Shown: one piece after another, positions 8,887 to 58,337 of the stretch
How positions within the stretch are numbered: position 1 is the stretch's first letter
Layout of the letters: each line of letters opens with the position of its first letter
DNA from: Haloferax litoreum
GTDB taxonomy: Archaea > Halobacteriota > Halobacteria > Halobacteriales > Haloferacaceae
DNA: 64,000 bases
Direction: 5' to 3'
Assembly (NCBI RefSeq): GCF_009674605.1
Contig: NZ_WKJO01000001.1
Coordinates: forward strand, 1,922,001 to 1,986,000
Program-made: the position numbers and the translations under genes
The notes under the pieces: model-generated
Database searches by the model: none
Told to the model about the DNA's origin: nothing
Seen by the model: only the letters and a program-made list of their open reading frames with translations

Positions 8887-10341
8887 GTGGACATTCGCCA
8901 CCTCGTGGCCCGTGTGGCCGCACGCGCCAGCGAACTCCGCGCCCGTATTCGACGGGTAGAGCGGCGTGAAACGGTGGCGTTCAGTCGTTGGATAGAGAAC
9001 ACGAACAACCTGCTTCATCTCACAGTTTTACTCCTCATCCCGCTCCTCATCGGAGTCGTGACGTTCGTCTCGAACTCGGTGAGCACGCTCTCGTTCCTGT
9101 TGTTTCCACCACTCGCGTCCGGGTCGTACACGCTCTTTTCGGACCCCGAAGGACAGTACGCGTCGCCAGTGAAGTTCGTCCTCGCACTCACCGTCGGTGC
9201 CCTCTGCGGACTCGTCGCGTTCGGGTTCACGACGTGGGTGTACGGACCCACCGGAACCACCATCGTCCACCCATCGTCTGCCGCCTTCGCTATCTTCCTC
9301 GCAGGAGGCGCGACGTGGGCGCTCGACATCGAAGCGCCCTCTGCGTTCTCGACGGCACTCTTGACTCTCGTGACGGGGGACGTGAACCCCGAAGAGTACG
9401 TGGTGAGCATCTTCTTCGCGAGCGTCGTCATCGCCATCGTGTTCAGCGTCTGGCGCGAGGAGTTCTACGAACGGCGCGCAGAGTACCTCTACGGCACGGT
9501 CAAAGGTGACGACCACGTCCTCGTTCCGATGCGCGGCGAGACGGCAGACCGAACCGCGTTCTTCGCGGCCAAACTCGCCGCGGCGCACGAGGCCGGGAAA
9601 GTCGTCCTCCTCGACGTTCTCTCACCCGACGAGACGGCCGACACGCACGGGCCACCGTCGGGCGCAGATGCAGGCACAGAGCCGGAAGTGGTGTCTCCCG
9701 AATCGACCGGGAGTCCTGCTGCGGATGCCGCAGTCGACCGTCTCGAAACCTGCGCGCACGACATTCGAACAAAACTCGGCGTCCCCGTCGAAGTCGTCGT
9801 CGCCAGCGGCGACCCACTCTCGGCGACAGTGGAGGCGGCAGGCAACACCAACTCCGACCTCGTCGTCACACCGTACGAAGAAGACCGAGGCTTGCTGTCG
9901 GACTACGTCCGCGGCCTCTTCGGTGGCCAGTACGATACGGTCGCGTTTCGGTCGACCGGGGGGGAGTACCGGTGGCGACGGATTCTGGTCCTCGTCTCGC
10001 GTCCCGGCGACGCTGCCCACGCGATGATTGACTTCGCGACGCGACTCGCGGGCAAGACTGGGAGCGTGAGCGTCACGACGTGTATCTCGGCGGAAGTCGA
10101 ACGCCGACCGGCGGAGGCGAAACTCGCAAATCTGGTCGAGACGGCAGAGGGGAACATCGAGACGCGAGTCGCCCGCAGCGAGGTGACGAAGTTCATCGCC
10201 TCTAACACCGCCACGTACGACCTGGTCGTCCTCGGGTCGAGTGGCGAGCGCTCTGCTGCCTCGCGATTCATCTCGCCGCCGACGTTCGAACGAATCAGAG
10301 AAATCGACTGCGACGTGGCCGTCTTCGACCGCGGGAACTAG
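8887..10341 (+). CDS. HPP-family membrane domain fused to tandem UspA domains
   Basis: A 484-aa fusion. Residues 38-180 form an HPP-type membrane domain with about four segments, including LLFPPLASGSYTLF, near the HPP hallmark, and VHPSSAAFAIFLAGG. From about residue 205 the protein is soluble and UspA-like, with two halves: one beginning DDHVLVPMRGETAD and a second beginning RRILVLVSRPGDAA and ending LVVLGSSGERSAASR, a nucleotide-binding-type Usp ending. HPP proteins in bacteria and plastids are linked to nitrite transport; Usp domains bind ATP or sense stress, so this may be a regulated transporter. The start is a GTG. The stop overlaps the convergent channel gene by four bases. Confidence 0.85.
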   Translation: MDIRHLVARVAARASELRARIRRVERRETVAFSRWIENTNNLLHLTVLLLIPLLIGVVTFVSNSVSTLSFLLFPPLASGSYTLFSDPEGQYASPVKFVLALTVGALCGLVAFGFTTWVYGPTGTTIVHPSSAAFAIFLAGGATWALDIEAPSAFSTALLTLVTGDVNPEEYVVSIFFASVVIAIVFSVWREEFYERRAEYLYGTVKGDDHVLVPMRGETADRTAFFAAKLAAAHEAGKVVLLDVLSPDETADTHGPPSGADAGTEPEVVSPESTGSPAADAAVDRLETCAHDIRTKLGVPVEVVVASGDPLSATVEAAGNTNSDLVVTPYEEDRGLLSDYVRGLFGGQYDTVAFRSTGGEYRWRRILVLVSRPGDAAHAMIDFATRLAGKTGSVSVTTCISAEVERRPAEAKLANLVETAEGNIETRVARSEVTKFIASNTATYDLVVLGSSGERSAASRFISPPTFERIREIDCDVAVFDRGN

Positions 10342-11549
10342 TCGTCGCTGGCGTCGGTATCGGCTTCGTTGGTGTCGTCAGCGGCCGCGGCCACCTCGTC
10401 TGGTTCTTCTTCGAGGAGGCGCTCTTCGACCGTCTCGAGGCCGCTCCCACCGATGGCGGACTCGGCGAGGAAGTGGCCACCGAGTGCGGCAGGGCTGATG
10501 ACGGTGTTCGCCCCTGCGCGCCGGAGTTTGGGTTCGTTCTCACGCTGGGTCGCCGCCGCGACGATGTGGATGTCGGGATTGAGTTGTCGAGCAGTCAGGA
10601 TAGCGAGTGCGTCTTCGGCGTCGTTGTTGGTTGCGACGATAGCCGACCGGGCGACTTCGACGCGGGCGCGCTTCAGCGATTCCTCGTCGCTCGGGTCGGC
10701 GGTGAACACGTCGTAGCCGCGGTCTGAGAGACGCTGTGCACGCTCCGAGTTCGGCGTGATGATGAGGACGTCGGCGCGTCCTTCGAGTTCTTCGAGAATC
10801 GGTTCGGTCAGTTCCCCGTGGCCGAGGACGAGGACGTGGTTGTCGAGGATTTCCAGTTGTGATTCGGTCATGCGTCCAAGTGCTTTGGTGAGTCGTGCTT
10901 CGATTGCGGGCGTGAGCAAGACACCGAGTGCCACCGCGAAACTCGCGACGGTGACGAGGAGTGCCGACATCCCGAACAGTTTGGCGTACGGTGTCCGCGG
11001 GGTGATGTCGCCATAGCCGACGGTACTTCCGGTGACGAGTGCGAAGTAGAAGGCGTCGAACAGCGTGTCGATGCCGTTGAAGTCACGCCGGAGGGCGTAC
11101 GCCCCAGCAGTCGCGTAGGTCTGCGCGCCGACGATAGCCAGTAGCGCCGACAACTGCGTGACGTTCCAGTCGAGGTCACGGTCGAACGCCCGGTAGTTCA
11201 GCAGACAGAGGACGAGGCTGATTATCGAAAAGCCAATCAGTGGGGCGGCGCGTTCCGGCGACTGGATGAGGCCCTGCGCGGCAGACACCGGCAGGAGAAC
11301 GACCGTCGAGTACCACGCCGAACGAAGGCGTCGCCGAAGGCCGTACACGCTGGCCAGCAGGAGGAACCCGGTCAGCGTGCCGGTGAACCCTGCCGTGATG
11401 CGGATGACTTCGGGCACGAGCGAACCGAAGAGGCCACCGCTCACGGGCGAACTGATGTTCAAGATACCCGTCGCTGCAGACAAGATTGCCACGACGAACA
11501 CTGTCGTGACAGTGGTCCGAGCGCCTACCCAGTCGCGTGCCGACACCAT
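10338..11549 (-). CDS. potassium channel with cytoplasmic TrkA-N (RCK) domain
   Basis: 403-aa channel. The N-terminal part carries several hydrophobic segments (residues 10-150). The pore loop has the potassium selectivity filter in TGSTVGYGDITP near residue 191, followed by the inner helix. The RCK/TrkA-N Rossmann domain starts with NHVLVLGHGELTE near 238, with GHG in place of the usual GxGxxG, and contains IVATNNDAEDALAIL and NTVISPAALGGHFLA. The tail is Asp-rich and contains no full TrkA-C domain; two separate TrkA-C proteins are encoded divergently next door and could supply it. The ATG at 11549 is chosen over an upstream in-frame start because the extension is polar. Confidence 0.92.
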   Translation of the reverse strand: MVSARDWVGARTTVTTVFVVAILSAATGILNISSPVSGGLFGSLVPEVIRITAGFTGTLTGFLLLASVYGLRRRLRSAWYSTVVLLPVSAAQGLIQSPERAAPLIGFSIISLVLCLLNYRAFDRDLDWNVTQLSALLAIVGAQTYATAGAYALRRDFNGIDTLFDAFYFALVTGSTVGYGDITPRTPYAKLFGMSALLVTVASFAVALGVLLTPAIEARLTKALGRMTESQLEILDNHVLVLGHGELTEPILEELEGRADVLIITPNSERAQRLSDRGYDVFTADPSDEESLKRARVEVARSAIVATNNDAEDALAILTARQLNPDIHIVAAATQRENEPKLRRAGANTVISPAALGGHFLAESAIGGSGLETVEERLLEEEPDEVAAAADDTNEADTDASDD

Positions 11550-11689
11550 GTCGCCGAAACTCGGCAGGGGACGGGGAAAAAGCGTTGGGTATCGGTACGA
11601 CTGGCAGGCGACACCGTGACTGTCCCGTGTCACGAGCGAACGGTTCGCTCGCCGTCACGCATTTATCTCGGGAGTGAGTGAACAGGGCT

Positions 11690-12898
11690 ATGGCTTCACT
11701 TCCTGTCGAAGTGGTCTACGGTCTCTACTTCGGCATTCTCACGGGACTCGTCCCCGCCGCCGTCGCGTGGCTCTTTGGGTTCGGGTTTCGGTACGTCACC
11801 GGGGTCACGATTCCCGGTCTCGCCGTGGTGGTCCTCAGCGTGGCCATCGCCGGCGCCAGCGGTGGTCTCATGGCCCTCGCCGACCCCACCATCACGCAGT
11901 CGGACAATCAAGTTCGACTGACCGTGGCGCTGTTGGTCGTGCTGATGGGCGCACTGTACGCACACAACCGCGGTGACGCGTTCGCGAACGAGATTCCGCG
12001 CAAGATGTCGCTCCGGAGACTCACCGAGCGGACGCTTTCGACCGACGTGGTCGAACTCGTGGGTGGGCGCGGGCAAGTCACGGTCACCGTCCCGCGGGAA
12101 GTCGGCGACATCGAGGGCTACCCACCGGTTCCCGTCGACGTTCGCACCGCGATTCGAGACGGTGAGTGGACGTTCCCCGCAGACATCCCACTGGTCGAAC
12201 TCGAATCGCGGTTCGCAGACCGCCTGCAGACAGAGTTCGACCTCGCCGCAGTCGAGGTCCAAATCGACGAACAGGCCCGCGCGAGGGTCGCCGCGGCGGC
12301 ACCGGTCGGCGGCCTCTCGAAACGACTGTCCGCAGGGAAGCGGGCCGTCTCTATCGAGGCCCTCGTCCCGACCGGACTCGCACAGGGAGACGACGTGGTC
12401 GTCGCCACCGACGGCGGGACCATCTCGGCGAGCGTCGTCGGTGTCGATTCGGTCGCCGAAGCGGTCGATACCGACAACGACGCGGAAGACGACGAAGCAC
12501 CGAAGTGGGCACCTCGCGCACCGACGGCGGCGGGCGGTGAGGGCCGGGTCACACTCGCAGTCGAGCGAACCGACGTGGAGTCACTCCTCCGAAGCGATGC
12601 GACGCAGTTCGTCGTCACCTCTCGGGGTGTCCGCCGTGAATTCGAACTCGTCTCACTGCTTCGCCGAGCGGGCAAGCGATTTTCGAGACTCACCGTCGGC
12701 GCGGACGGCCCACTGGATGGCGTGTCGCTCAGAGCGGCGAGCGTCCGCGATACCTACGGCGTGGCCATCCTCGCTCTCCGCCACAGTGGGACGTGGACTA
12801 TCGCTCCCCGCGGCGACCAGACAATCTCGGCTGGAGACACACTGTACGCCGTCGGGTCGCGTTCCGACCTGACCGCGTTCGAGGAGGCAGTCGCGTGA
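11690..12898 (+). CDS. membrane protein with C-terminal TrkA-C (RCK-C) domain, copy 1
   Basis: 402-aa protein with three N-terminal membrane segments (about residues 6-26, 30-58 and 74-88), a soluble middle with the phrase VPREVGDIEGYPPVPVDV, and a C-terminal TrkA-C fold (GPLDGVSLRAASVRDTYGV through ISAGDTLYAVGSRSDL). It has no TrkA-N domain and no pore filter. In potassium systems TrkA-C binds small ligands and gates the partner, so this may be an accessory gating subunit of the divergently encoded channel. The ATG at 11690 has a TATA-like ATTTATC at 11660-11666. Its stop overlaps the GTG of a paralogue. Confidence 0.8.
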   Translation: MASLPVEVVYGLYFGILTGLVPAAVAWLFGFGFRYVTGVTIPGLAVVVLSVAIAGASGGLMALADPTITQSDNQVRLTVALLVVLMGALYAHNRGDAFANEIPRKMSLRRLTERTLSTDVVELVGGRGQVTVTVPREVGDIEGYPPVPVDVRTAIRDGEWTFPADIPLVELESRFADRLQTEFDLAAVEVQIDEQARARVAAAAPVGGLSKRLSAGKRAVSIEALVPTGLAQGDDVVVATDGGTISASVVGVDSVAEAVDTDNDAEDDEAPKWAPRAPTAAGGEGRVTLAVERTDVESLLRSDATQFVVTSRGVRREFELVSLLRRAGKRFSRLTVGADGPLDGVSLRAASVRDTYGVAILALRHSGTWTIAPRGDQTISAGDTLYAVGSRSDLTAFEEAVA

Positions 12899-14271
12899 CC
12901 GCGACGATGCTCGCAGTCGACCTCGGTTCGGCCGTCGTCGGACAGGTGTCGGTCCCACCAGCGAGTGACCCACTGGTCAGAAACGTCCTCCGCGTCGTCG
13001 GCCTCGTCGTCGGTGCGTTCCTCGCTTCCGGCGTCGCCGCACTCACGTATCGGTGGTACACCCGTGAGGCCATCCCGCGGGCACTCGCAGTCCTCTTCGG
13101 CACCTCCGTCGTCGCACTGTACCTGAACACCGTCGGTCTGTTCGGCGACTTCGTCACGGGGACGGACACCGCCGTCTTCGAACTCGAACGTGTGCTCTTC
13201 AACACGTCCGCGCTGGCGGGTGGTGCAGTCGCCTCGCCCGTCGGCCGTATCGTCGGAGACCGTGCGGCGACGGACGTGTTCGCCGTCGCCGGTGCGAAAG
13301 AACTCGACACCGACGTGAGTCGCCTCGTCCGAACCGTCGGGCGAGTGACGACGGTAACGATTCCCGACGAAGTGGGTGACATCGAAGGCTACGACCCCGT
13401 CTCCGAGAGCATCAAAGACCAGTTGAGCGGCAAGACACTCCTGTTCCCACGGCGACTCAGTGAGGACGAACTCCGTGAACGCCTCGTCGAACGAGTCAAA
13501 GACGACCACGGTGTCGGCCACGTGGACGTGGAGTTCGAAGACGGGCACGTCTCGTACTTCGCACTCGGGAGTCGCGCCGCCGGACTCGGGCCGACGCTCG
13601 CGCCTGGCACTGTCGCGGTTGCCATTCGTGCCGACCCCGGACCCGGCGCAGGTGCCGGTGACCCGGTGCAGGTCTGGGCGGTTCCGGACGCTGACGACAC
13701 AGACGGCACGGACGGCGAACTGCCGGCACCCACGAACGGAGAAGAGACGCGCGTCGAGAGTGACGGGAGTGGGTCGGTGCCGACTCGTGTCGCGTTCGGC
13801 GAACTTCGCGGCGTCGCCGACGACGTGGCGACCATCGCCCTCGACGAAGAAGACGCGGACAAACTCACGGGGGCAGACGAGTACCGGGTCGTCACACTCC
13901 CGGCGGACCTCCGTGTCGACCGTGAGTTCGCGTCACTCCTTCGGAACGCAGACGAGACGATGGCGGTCACCACCGTCACCCCAGATTCGGCACTCGACGG
14001 GCAACGTGTCTCTGACGTGGAGACGACTGTCGTCGCCATCAGACCATCCAACGGTCCCGTGGACGCCATCCCAGCACGGACCCGAGAACTTTCTGCTGGC
14101 GACACACTCTACGTCGTCGGCCGACCGGAACTCCTGCGGAAAGTCGAACGCCGGGCGACGACCGACGACAGCAGAACCGACGGCGGGGACGACGAGGACG
14201 GACACGAGGGCGGTGACGGTGACGGGAGCGACCGCCGCCCGGCGACGGGGTCGGGGGCGCAATCCTCATGA
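12895..14271 (+). CDS. membrane protein with C-terminal TrkA-C domain, copy 2
   Basis: 458-aa paralogue of the previous gene, started by a GTG overlapping its stop (an ATG lies four codons further in). It shares the layout: three N-terminal hydrophobic segments, the phrase IPDEVGDIEGYDPVSESI, and a C-terminal TrkA-C ending LSAGDTLYVVGRPELL. It adds Asp/Glu-rich linkers and a long acidic tail. Tandem copies, overlap coupling and the neighbouring channel suggest a hetero-oligomeric gating complex; that is inference. The stop overlaps an ATG (14268) in frame with the next gene, samp1, so all three may be one transcript. Confidence 0.8.
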   Translation: MTATMLAVDLGSAVVGQVSVPPASDPLVRNVLRVVGLVVGAFLASGVAALTYRWYTREAIPRALAVLFGTSVVALYLNTVGLFGDFVTGTDTAVFELERVLFNTSALAGGAVASPVGRIVGDRAATDVFAVAGAKELDTDVSRLVRTVGRVTTVTIPDEVGDIEGYDPVSESIKDQLSGKTLLFPRRLSEDELRERLVERVKDDHGVGHVDVEFEDGHVSYFALGSRAAGLGPTLAPGTVAVAIRADPGPGAGAGDPVQVWAVPDADDTDGTDGELPAPTNGEETRVESDGSGSVPTRVAFGELRGVADDVATIALDEEDADKLTGADEYRVVTLPADLRVDREFASLLRNADETMAVTTVTPDSALDGQRVSDVETTVVAIRPSNGPVDAIPARTRELSAGDTLYVVGRPELLRKVERRATTDDSRTDGGDDEDGHEGGDGDGSDRRPATGSGAQSS

Positions 14272-14294
14272 GTACCGAGCGAGGAACCCATAGC

Positions 14295-14558
14295 ATGGAG
14301 TGGAAATTGTTCGCAGACCTCGCGGAGGTGGCCGGTGCGCGCACCATCCGCGTCGACGTCGGCGACGACGTGACTGTCGGCGAGGCACTCGACGCACTCG
14401 TCGGTGCGCACCCGTCGCTCGAATCACGGGTGTTCGCCGACGACGGCGAGTTGTACGACCACATCAACGTCCTTCGAAACGGTGAGAACGCGTCACTCGA
14501 CGACGACGCGACGGTCGGCGACGAACTCGCCCTCTTCCCGCCGGTCAGCGGCGGGTAA
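14295..14558 (+). CDS. samp1: ubiquitin-like small archaeal modifier protein SAMP1 / MoaD-like
   Basis: 87-aa beta-grasp protein beginning MEWKLFADLAEVAG and ending FPPVSGG. The diglycine tail is activated by the E1-like enzyme UbaA and attached to lysines of target proteins; in Haloferax volcanii SAMP1 also acts as the MoaD-type sulfur carrier for molybdopterin. Length and sequence closely match the Haloferax protein as I remember it, hence this start. An in-frame ATG at 14268, overlapping the preceding stop, would add nine residues and cannot be ruled out; GCGAGGAA upstream of 14295 could be a ribosome-binding site. UbaA is not in the window; a MoaB-type gene is at 48757. Confidence 0.95.
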   Translation: MEWKLFADLAEVAGARTIRVDVGDDVTVGEALDALVGAHPSLESRVFADDGELYDHINVLRNGENASLDDDATVGDELALFPPVSGG

Positions 14559-56651: not shown

Positions 56652-58337
56652 ATGGTTTCGCTCCCAGAGTCGATTCGCAGGCTGAAGCCAAGCCGTCGAG
56701 CCCGACACATCATCTACTACGTTATCGGCCTCGTGCTGCTCGTACTCCTGTACACGCTCGTGTACAATTTCGCGTTAGCACGACTAGAGGGTGTCGACCA
56801 GTCTCTCTTCGCGTCGTTCGAGTTCGTCATCCAGACGATGACGACCACTGGGTACGGTCAGGACTCGGACATCTGGAGCCATCCGCTCATGTTCCTGTTC
56901 GTCGTCACGACCCAGATTTCGGGCATCGCAATTGGGTTCTTTACGCTCCGTCTCATCATCATCCCCCTGTTCACCGGTGCCGAGGTCAACCTCGACGACC
57001 GACTCAGCCCCAAAAGCGGGCACGTCATCATCTGCGAGTATCGTCGCGACTCGGCAGTCCTTCTGGACGAACTCAGAGAATTCGGTATCGAGTACGTACT
57101 CATCTCGTCTTCACGGGAGGACGCCGAGGCACTCTCGAACCGTGGGTACGCAGCAATCCACGGCTCTCCGCAGGACGCTGAGACGTTCGAGCGAGCGAGC
57201 ATCGACACTGCGAGGGCCGTCATCACGGACGCCGGTGATGCGAACGTCAACACGATACTCACCGTCCGGTCGCTCCGGTCAGATGTCGACGTCATCGCGC
57301 TGACCGACGACAGCGACATGCAAGAGATACTGCACAAGGTCGGCGCGGACACCGTACTGTCGCCTCACGGTGTCTTGGGGCACCGCCTCGCGGAGAAGGC
57401 CGTCGCCTCGTTCAGTTCCGAACTCAGGGACACCATCGAAATCGGCGGGGACACGAGATTGATGGAACTCCCAGTGTCCGATTCGAGCGAACTCGTCGGC
57501 CGGAGAATCCGAGATACCAACGTCAGGGAGCGAACGGGAGCGACCATCGTCGGTGCCTGGTTCGACGGCGAGTTACAGTTACCACCCAGCCCGGACGCCA
57601 TCGTCGCCCCGAACACCGTGCTTCTGGTGTCGGGCGAGGAAGAGGCGCTCAAAGAATTGAGTGAGTTCATCCGCCCACCCCGTTCGTTCACCGAACACGA
57701 GCGATTCGTTCTCGTCGGCTTGGGCGAAGTCGGCCAGTCCGCAAGGCGAGTCATCGAAGAGTCGGGTGCAGAAGTCGTGACTATCGACCTCGAAGACAGG
57801 GCTGGAGTCGATATCGTCGGGGACGGTGGGTCGAGAGAAGTCTTGCTCGAAGCGGGTGTCGAGAACGCCGGTGCTATCATCGTCGGTGTGCCCGACGATT
57901 CGACAGCGCTCCTCACGTCCGTTCTGGCACAGTCGCTCAACCCGGATATCGAGGTGCTCGTCCGCGTGAGCGACGCGGACACGACGCAGAAGGCGTTCAG
58001 TGCCGGTGCCGACTACGTCCTGTCGGTTCCGCGAGTGAGCGCACGGATGGTCGCCAAAGAACTTCGCGGCGAGGACGTACTCGCACCAGCGAGTCAGATT
58101 CGCCTCGTTCGCGTGCTGGCCACACCGTTCGCCGGGTCGACACTGGCTGATTCGGGTATCTACGAGCAGACTGGGTGTCGCGTCATCGCCATCGAAGACG
58201 GCGAGGGCCAGACGAGCGCAGTCGACCCGCAGTGGCGATTCACCGGCAGCGAACGGATAACTATCGTCGGGTCCGACGAGACGGTGCAGAACTTCATCAG
58301 GCGGTTCGACGTCTCCCCGACTGAACTGCCCTCGTAG
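56652..58337 (+). CDS. potassium channel with two RCK (TrkA-N/C) modules
   Basis: 561-aa 2TM channel. Membrane helices at about 20-40 and 80-105 surround the pore loop FVIQTMTTTGYGQDSD (filter TTGYGQ, the TGYG type). Two cytoplasmic RCK modules follow: the first with GHVIICEYRRDSAVLLDEL near 125 and a TrkA-C around 215-300; the second with RFVLVGLGEVGQSARRVIEE near 350 and a TrkA-C to the end. This is a calcium- or nucleotide-gated-type layout. It lacks the multi-helix N-terminus of the channel at 10338 and probably serves a different conductance or signal. TTTTTATT (56615-56622) lies 33 bases upstream. Confidence 0.93.
   Translation: MVSLPESIRRLKPSRRARHIIYYVIGLVLLVLLYTLVYNFALARLEGVDQSLFASFEFVIQTMTTTGYGQDSDIWSHPLMFLFVVTTQISGIAIGFFTLRLIIIPLFTGAEVNLDDRLSPKSGHVIICEYRRDSAVLLDELREFGIEYVLISSSREDAEALSNRGYAAIHGSPQDAETFERASIDTARAVITDAGDANVNTILTVRSLRSDVDVIALTDDSDMQEILHKVGADTVLSPHGVLGHRLAEKAVASFSSELRDTIEIGGDTRLMELPVSDSSELVGRRIRDTNVRERTGATIVGAWFDGELQLPPSPDAIVAPNTVLLVSGEEEALKELSEFIRPPRSFTEHERFVLVGLGEVGQSARRVIEESGAEVVTIDLEDRAGVDIVGDGGSREVLLEAGVENAGAIIVGVPDDSTALLTSVLAQSLNPDIEVLVRVSDADTTQKAFSAGADYVLSVPRVSARMVAKELRGEDVLAPASQIRLVRVLATPFAGSTLADSGIYEQTGCRVIAIEDGEGQTSAVDPQWRFTGSERITIVGSDETVQNFIRRFDVSPTELPS

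Follow-up and report, generated by a model that had tools for sequence, protein, structure and literature searches.

The window analysed here, a stretch of 64,000 nucleotides from Haloferax litoreum (contig NZ_WKJO01000001.1, positions 1,922,001 to 1,986,000), encodes a Kch-type K+ channel and, divergently from it, two overlapping genes for membrane proteins, termed A and B. At this locus, an ordinary Kch-type channel stands beside an unusual, conserved and Halobacteria-specific partner pair. The three genes and their domains are as follows.

10338..11633, minus strand: Kch-type K+ channel, 431 residues as called (open reading frame and domain profiles); likely true start Met29 at 11549
10914..11102, minus strand: Ion_trans_2 pore, channel residues 178-240, filter TVGYGD (profile; filter read in the sequence)
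10491..10835, minus strand: TrkA_N (RCK_N) domain of the channel, residues 267-381 (profile)
11690..12898, plus strand: protein A, 402 residues, with transmembrane helices 6-37, 42-64 and 74-101, a cytosolic middle region and a C-terminal RCK_C (profiles, model)
12041..12643, plus strand: middle region of A, residues 118-318 (matches of the phylum scan limited to the order of the window)
12686..12889, plus strand: TrkA_C / RCK_C of A, residues 333-400 (profile, fold match)
12895..14271, plus strand: protein B, a paralogue of A, 458 residues from a GTG start, with three transmembrane helices, a middle region, an RCK_C and a low-confidence acidic tail (profiles, model)
13315..13917, plus strand: middle region of B, residues 140-340, with a weak RcpC/CpaB-like or small β-barrel likeness (profiles, fold search)
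13972..14154, plus strand: TrkA_C / RCK_C of B, residues 359-419 (profile, fold match)

The residue numbers of the B domains refer to a 457-residue version that starts at 12898, one codon past the GTG at 12895, which leaves the domain results unaffected.

Domain composition of the channel and of proteins A and B

Pfam profiles detected on the channel chain an Ion_trans_2 pore (E-value 1.5e-13) and a TrkA_N domain (E 1.1e-29), the pore-plus-TrkA_N composition by which a Kch-type channel was recognized, and found no TrkA_C, in agreement with the initial annotation of this DNA, which had described a channel with TrkA-N and without TrkA-C. Among NCBIfam models, that of E. coli Kch, PRK10537, matches best (E 3.5e-54), with a score of 184.3 bits against an equivalog cut-off of 425; judged by its sequence, the window channel is a relative that shares the PRK10537 architecture, not an equivalog. 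Its best solved relative is MthK, over channel residues 163-410. Translation probably starts at Met29 (11549), the codon of which (CAT, minus strand) is retained by eye in all 12 Haloferax loci; as a caveat, the alignments of 15 same-genus channels start anywhere between residues 1 and 27. The Asp-rich tail pointed out in the initial annotation is present, with Asp or Glu at 14 of the final 30 residues; however, a long acidic tail is not conserved among the orthologues. In a survey of 76 called channels, 72 were long enough and 69 had a recognizable SP..GG end motif, beyond which the tail varies from 22 to 76 residues, and 53 of these 69 end at most 35 residues past the motif. The tail was accordingly rejected as a functional element.

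Proteins A and B are paralogues that share 29% identity (E 2.7e-19 in a search of their own genome), the remaining matches of A in this genome being short and at E 0.003 or weaker. The GTG start of B at 12895 overlaps the stop of A by four bases (GTGA), and A is 98% identical in H. profundi. TrkA_C was matched in A with an E-value of 7.3e-13 (Pfam), and in B at 24.9-25.1 bits, slightly below the Pfam cut-off of 27. At E-values up to 1, this profile (PF02080) is found in all 43 A and all 44 B family members, and TrkA_N is not listed by Pfam for the two window proteins or for any of these 87 relatives. Two divergently encoded membrane paralogues that end in TrkA-C and carry no TrkA-N had indeed been noted from the sequence at 11690 and 12895.

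Structure models were predicted by AlphaFold from 43 (A) and 44 (B) sequences, with a mean predicted local distance difference test score of 76.9 and 79.3 and a predicted template modelling score (pTM) of 0.39 and 0.36, respectively; since the pTM values are low, the placement of domains relative to each other is unreliable in both models. In each model, three membrane helices are followed by a cytosolic middle region and then an RCK_C domain, and the charge distribution, assessed by eye, predicts cytosolic C-termini for both proteins. Fold comparison matched the RCK_C of A to KhtT (Z 13.4, root-mean-square deviation (RMSD) 2.0, 85 residues aligned), tied with others within 1, and that of B to PH0236 (PDB 2bko), with Z 12.0 and an RMSD of 2.1 over 73 residues. 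Profile and modelled fold together make the assignment of both RCK_C domains secure.

The middle region is treated here as a β-rich region, for which the profiles suggest a weak likeness to RcpC/CpaB. Weak matches to RcpC/CpaB (PF16976) at E-values up to 1 occur in 17 of 43 A proteins, 5 of 44 B proteins and 7 of 30 B middle regions, and B compares to the RcpC/CpaB fold (PDB 9gzr) with Z 7.7 and an RMSD of 3.3 over 88 aligned residues; RcpC is not listed in the PDB profile searches with the middle regions of A and B. The middle region of B also matches part of SMUBP-2 (PDB profile E 7.9e-6), with weak Pfam matches in 14 of 30.

Pairing of A with B and linkage to Kch

Conservation of the arrangement was examined in named loci, which are the best 80 of 200 relatives, in stretches extending 7 kb each way (six of the 80 are clipped by contig ends). 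B lies downstream of A in all 80 named loci, and the 4-base overlap is the same in 76, a count that the picking of starts favours. A and B are a strict, obligate two-gene unit. As separate observations, A is duplicated in tandem at L167:7001-10835, the extra copy separating A from B, and the B open frame at L186:8266-12114 was called at 1283 residues, against 385-652 residues in the other 79 loci.

The channel gene lies divergently from A within 606 bases in 76 of the 80 named loci, a figure that leans toward close relatives because these loci are the best matches; the stretches L169, L199, L226 and L234 lack Kch. The other neighbours are SAMP1 (70 of the 80), UDP (43) and HPP-USP (39), the latter two being on the far side of the channel in the window. 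For family f4, which comprises 111 genomes, 127 match rows were used and split by rank into 74 type-1 and 53 type-2 A rows, after the last 23 listed, at E 3.9e-16 and weaker and mostly B-type second matches, had been dropped. Of the 74 type-1 rows, 65 are divergent to Kch at a distance of at most 2.9 kb, and nine lie elsewhere. Counted by genome, Kch is present in 109 members of f4: A adjoins it in 65, lies solely at other places in 23 and is lacking in 21; two further genomes, 55% and 66% complete, have A and no Kch match. Outside f4, adjacency was read from the named loci and from fetched stretches, including 20 picked by hand, many of them for the absence of A, which are not a random sample. 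Among the hand-picked stretches and the window, the block was seen in families f1, f2, f3, f4, f6, f7 and f8, and in f9 with one gene between. Since the arrangement recurs across families, it is not due to chance, and the linkage of A-B to Kch is real and old.

Searching 391 Halobacteria genomes with thresholds of E 1e-25 for the channel and E 1e-10 for A, and comparing the match lists by eye, revealed a one-way co-occurrence. Kch was matched in 378 genomes and A in 325; all 325 also have Kch, 53 have Kch only, and none of the 13 channel-less genomes has an A match. A hypergeometric value of 3e-11 for this pattern was set aside, since it takes no account of kinship and linkage. At L088 (genome G134), the A-B pair is reduced to a 109-residue open frame (L088:9209-9538) with an A-like start and B-like pieces at its end, which adjoins an intact 403-residue Kch channel and lies upstream of SAMP1. 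Where A-B is missing at L096 and L102, Kch stands directly divergent to SAMP1. Among the 20 hand-picked stretches, twelve loci lack an intact adjacent pair, and TrkA_C is absent from all ten of their channels that were tested (L097 and L100 were left out). When 392 genomes of the phylum were searched with a profile of the A middle region, 66 gave a match, all of them among the 81 of the window's order, and none of the 311 others did (306 counted, unlisted). A-B was probably ancestral in Halobacteria and lost several times; the simplest history would be that the block is ancestral and that A-B dropped out of it repeatedly. The module is best read as specific to Halobacteria, within an overall reading that we hold at even confidence. 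Independently of these counts, Kch lies near an antiporter of the Na/H-exchanger kind in L103, L104, L105 and L094 (checked by Pfam in L103, by cluster in the others), and in L103 and L105 a TrkA_C protein at least as large as KhtT also lies nearby.

Four further features flank or separate these genes.

8887..10341, plus strand: membrane (HPP-like) plus USP protein, a less conserved neighbour, convergent with the channel, the stops overlapping
11550..11689, no strand: divergent intergenic region, 140 bases if the channel starts at Met29 (gene boundaries)
11662..11667, plus strand: TATA-like TTTATC, 23-28 bases upstream of the A start codon, ATG (read by eye)
14268..14558, plus strand: SAMP1, a ubiquitin-like modifier and conserved neighbour (profile), the start overlapping the stop of B by four bases (ATGA)

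The overlap of SAMP1 with B suggests co-transcription of SAMP1 with the membrane pair. TTTAT is found by eye at the same place upstream of A in all 12 Haloferax loci. In addition, a 19-base palindrome with 9-base arms at 11633 was considered as an operator between the divergent genes and rejected, as it is interrupted in H. profundi and missing from the remaining Haloferax stretches (12 examined); arms of at least 8 bases arose in 19 of 2000 mononucleotide shuffles. The protein at 8887..10341 scores 27.0 bits for HPP against a cut-off of 27.2 and is fused to two USP stretches. Farther away in the window, at about 57024-58307, lies another TrkA-type protein, a 589-residue open frame with two TrkA_N and two TrkA_C stretches.

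Possible roles of the A-B pair

Haloarchaea maintain molar K+ in the cytosol, and in our judgement the gating of K+ flux in these organisms has been little studied. The best explanation of the locus, which as a whole we find evenly balanced, is that the channel retains its own complete Kch-type TrkA-N assembly; it is probably not missing a part. A and B would form an accessory membrane sensor, heteromeric and bearing RCK_C, that acts on Kch or on K+ balance without being part of the ring of the channel, for which we see about an even chance. Solved structures show RCK_C domains as dimers, so that A and B most likely pair through their RCK_C domains, and because the overlapping paralogues are kept together, an A:B heteromer through these domains would be the simplest assembly. 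The linkage and one-way co-occurrence with Kch make Kch itself, or K+ balance around it, the likeliest target of control. We propose that A and B heterodimerise via RCK_C, each anchored by its three membrane helices, that the RCK_C pair reads a cytosolic ligand or ion state, probably not in the canonical cyclic di-AMP (c-di-AMP) mode, and that the sensed state would alter the A-B membrane helices and in turn Kch activity or wider K+ homeostasis. If true, a conserved yet optional heteromeric RCK_C membrane pair tied to Kch would mean that a prokaryotic K+ channel has a system of auxiliary subunits, with the natural genomes that keep the channel and have lost the pair as a ready comparison.

Several points weigh against this accessory-sensor role. 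The pTM is low for both models (0.39 and 0.36), and a physical contact between A-B and Kch is something that we infer. The joint absence of A and Kch can stem from one deletion that removed the neighbouring genes together, or from gaps in the assemblies. Moreover, the block from UDP through HPP-USP, Kch, A and B to SAMP1 is syntenic as a whole, so that the linkage may partly be inherited gene order, and SAMP1 is linked nearly as often as Kch (70 versus 76 of 80). Distance matrices correlate with that of A at a rho of 0.64 for Kch, 0.71 for HPP-USP and 0.40 for SAMP1 over 19 loci, and of 0.57 for Kch and 0.53 for SAMP1 over 32 loci; because the correlation with A is as good for HPP-USP as for Kch, this co-evolution was set aside as not decisive support for Kch. 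Finally, the plasmid-borne pairs, and the type-2 pairs near ParA, HerA and T2SSE genes, both described below, suggest partners besides Kch.

The same pairs bear on a somewhat unlikely alternative, namely that A-B works independently as a membrane system, whether together with other partners or as a transporter or sensor of its own, and that Kch, A, B and SAMP1 are neighbours by old synteny only, which the near-equal linkage of SAMP1 favours. Type-1 pairs lie away from Kch in 9 of the 74 f4 rows and in all four plasmid records matched, which show no Kch within the fetched ~13 kb; on one plasmid (L020), the pair neighbours antiporters and an annotated Ion_trans channel of 288 residues, which has no TrkA_N. 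In seven pairs whose fetched stretches lack Kch, although it may be encoded elsewhere in those genomes, all 14 proteins still have TrkA_C at E-values up to 1, and this retention of RCK_C makes other partners possible. None of the 53 type-2 A rows of f4, which represent a diverged second version of the pair, has Kch within 6 kb, and the seven type-2 pairs that were fetched (L149-L155) recur near varying combinations of genes for ParA/MinD-like (one with DUF7125), HerA-like, DUF7310 coiled-coil and T2SSE proteins. However, TrkA_C is undetected in all seven type-2 A proteins and weak in all seven B proteins, as though RCK_C were kept for the type-1 role, and type-2 pairs perhaps represent a different partnership of the same membrane module. 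Independence also sits poorly with the lack of A in the 13 Kch-less genomes, the two f4 exceptions being incomplete assemblies, and with a Kch-A linkage that exceeds the retention of HPP-USP (76 versus 39 of 80).

The initial annotation had proposed instead that the three genes work together in a gating ring: A and B would supply RCK_C lobes in trans to the TrkA-N of Kch, giving a mixed ring with membrane-anchored C subunits, which we regard as unlikely. The association itself stands, in the linkage (76 of 80 loci, 65 of 74 f4 rows) and in the lack of A from channel-less genomes; the completion of a ring that the channel lacks is not supported. The channel aligns to residues 23-260 of MthK and A to residues 249-335 or 261-335, which together span the whole RCK chain, and split two-subunit gating rings exist, as an excerpt of PMC4380455 describes for TM1088A/TM1088B. 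However, according to the same excerpt, the C-domains of TM1088 sit on TrkA-N-bearing chains and pair with each other, whereas A and B have no TrkA-N. Against it also stand E. coli Kch and the ten channels from pair-less loci, all without TrkA-C, the L020 channel, which lies near a pair and has no TrkA_N, and, as the observation that the initial annotation had itself named as refuting, the channel orthologues that occur without the partner genes, namely the 53 of 378 channel genomes without A at 1e-10 and the intact channel beside the L088 remnant. Since Kch channels manage without TrkA-C and occur without A-B, the strong form of this proposal is weakened, and a missing C-lobe was rejected as a necessity. 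What would be left is a doubtful variant in which A and B are membrane-anchored auxiliary subunits around the Kch tetramer, their RCK_C heterodimers acting in trans, so that a split, ligand-tuned ring has an optional sensing half that was repeatedly lost; if true, a prokaryotic K+ channel would have a beta-subunit system.

That A-B is a c-di-AMP receptor coupling a second messenger essential in Haloferax to K+ control seems very improbable. By profile, the closest solved RCK_C is that of KtrA with c-di-AMP (PDB 4xtt, E 1.3e-8), and KtrC, KtrA, KhtT and BusR all outrank MthK against the RCK_C of A. H. volcanii makes c-di-AMP and its dacZ is essential, the targets having been left to future work in 2019 (PMC6741144, in excerpt). 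However, the RCK_C signature for this ligand published in PMC10117811, (I/L)(I/L)X2DX1RX5N(I/L)(I/L) as given in an excerpt, was found in neither strict nor relaxed form in any of 80 A or 80 B proteins, and the receptor assignment was rejected on these grounds. The Arg, retained in 41 of 43 A, is its only largely conserved position; the place of the Asn is taken by Ala in 31 of 43.

Comparison with known RCK systems

The architecture of A is already in print, as matched by description: the composite (ChiC) family 1329, represented by H. volcanii HVO_2617, a protein of 403 residues with a three-pass N-terminus and a C-terminal TrkA, resembles A in architecture and length, and a role in K+ uptake was suggested for it (PMC5992828, in excerpt). 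Unlike the present picture, the passage on this family mentions neither B, nor the linkage to Kch, nor a second version (PMC5992828). No functional study of A-B was found among the titles and abstract openings screened in the open-access literature; PMC8305020 mentions neither TrkA nor potassium, PMC8646023 mentions none of TrkA, RCK and potassium, and PMC1906763 deals with a TrkA-C gene that was annotated as a transcription regulator.

E. coli Kch (PRK10537; Ion_trans_2 plus TrkA_N) is similar to the window channel in domain order, lack of TrkA_C and length, with 28% identity over 349 alignment columns; unlike the window locus, the 18 kb around E. coli kch have no TrkA-C membrane pair annotated. 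The antiporters KhtT/KhtU and CpeA/CpeB resemble A-B in that RCK_C and the transporter are on different proteins. They differ in that KhtT is a cytosolic, c-di-AMP-binding antiporter subunit, as stated in the excerpt of PMC10117811, whereas A and B are membrane proteins without the signature. TM1088A/TM1088B share with the window locus overlapping genes and the combination of a TrkA-N-only chain with a second, TrkA-C-bearing chain; in the account excerpted from PMC4380455, however, the assembly is cytosolic and both chains have TrkA-N, of which A and B carry none.

Compared to MthK, the channel corresponds to the pore plus RCK_N, and A and B correspond to the RCK_C. KhtT and BusR have their RCK_C domains on separate chains, MthK and KtrA have them within a chain, and the ligand of MthK is Ca2+. 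Despite this likeness in parts, MthK unites RCK_N and RCK_C on one chain, whereas here TrkA_N is confined to the channel and TrkA_C to A and B.

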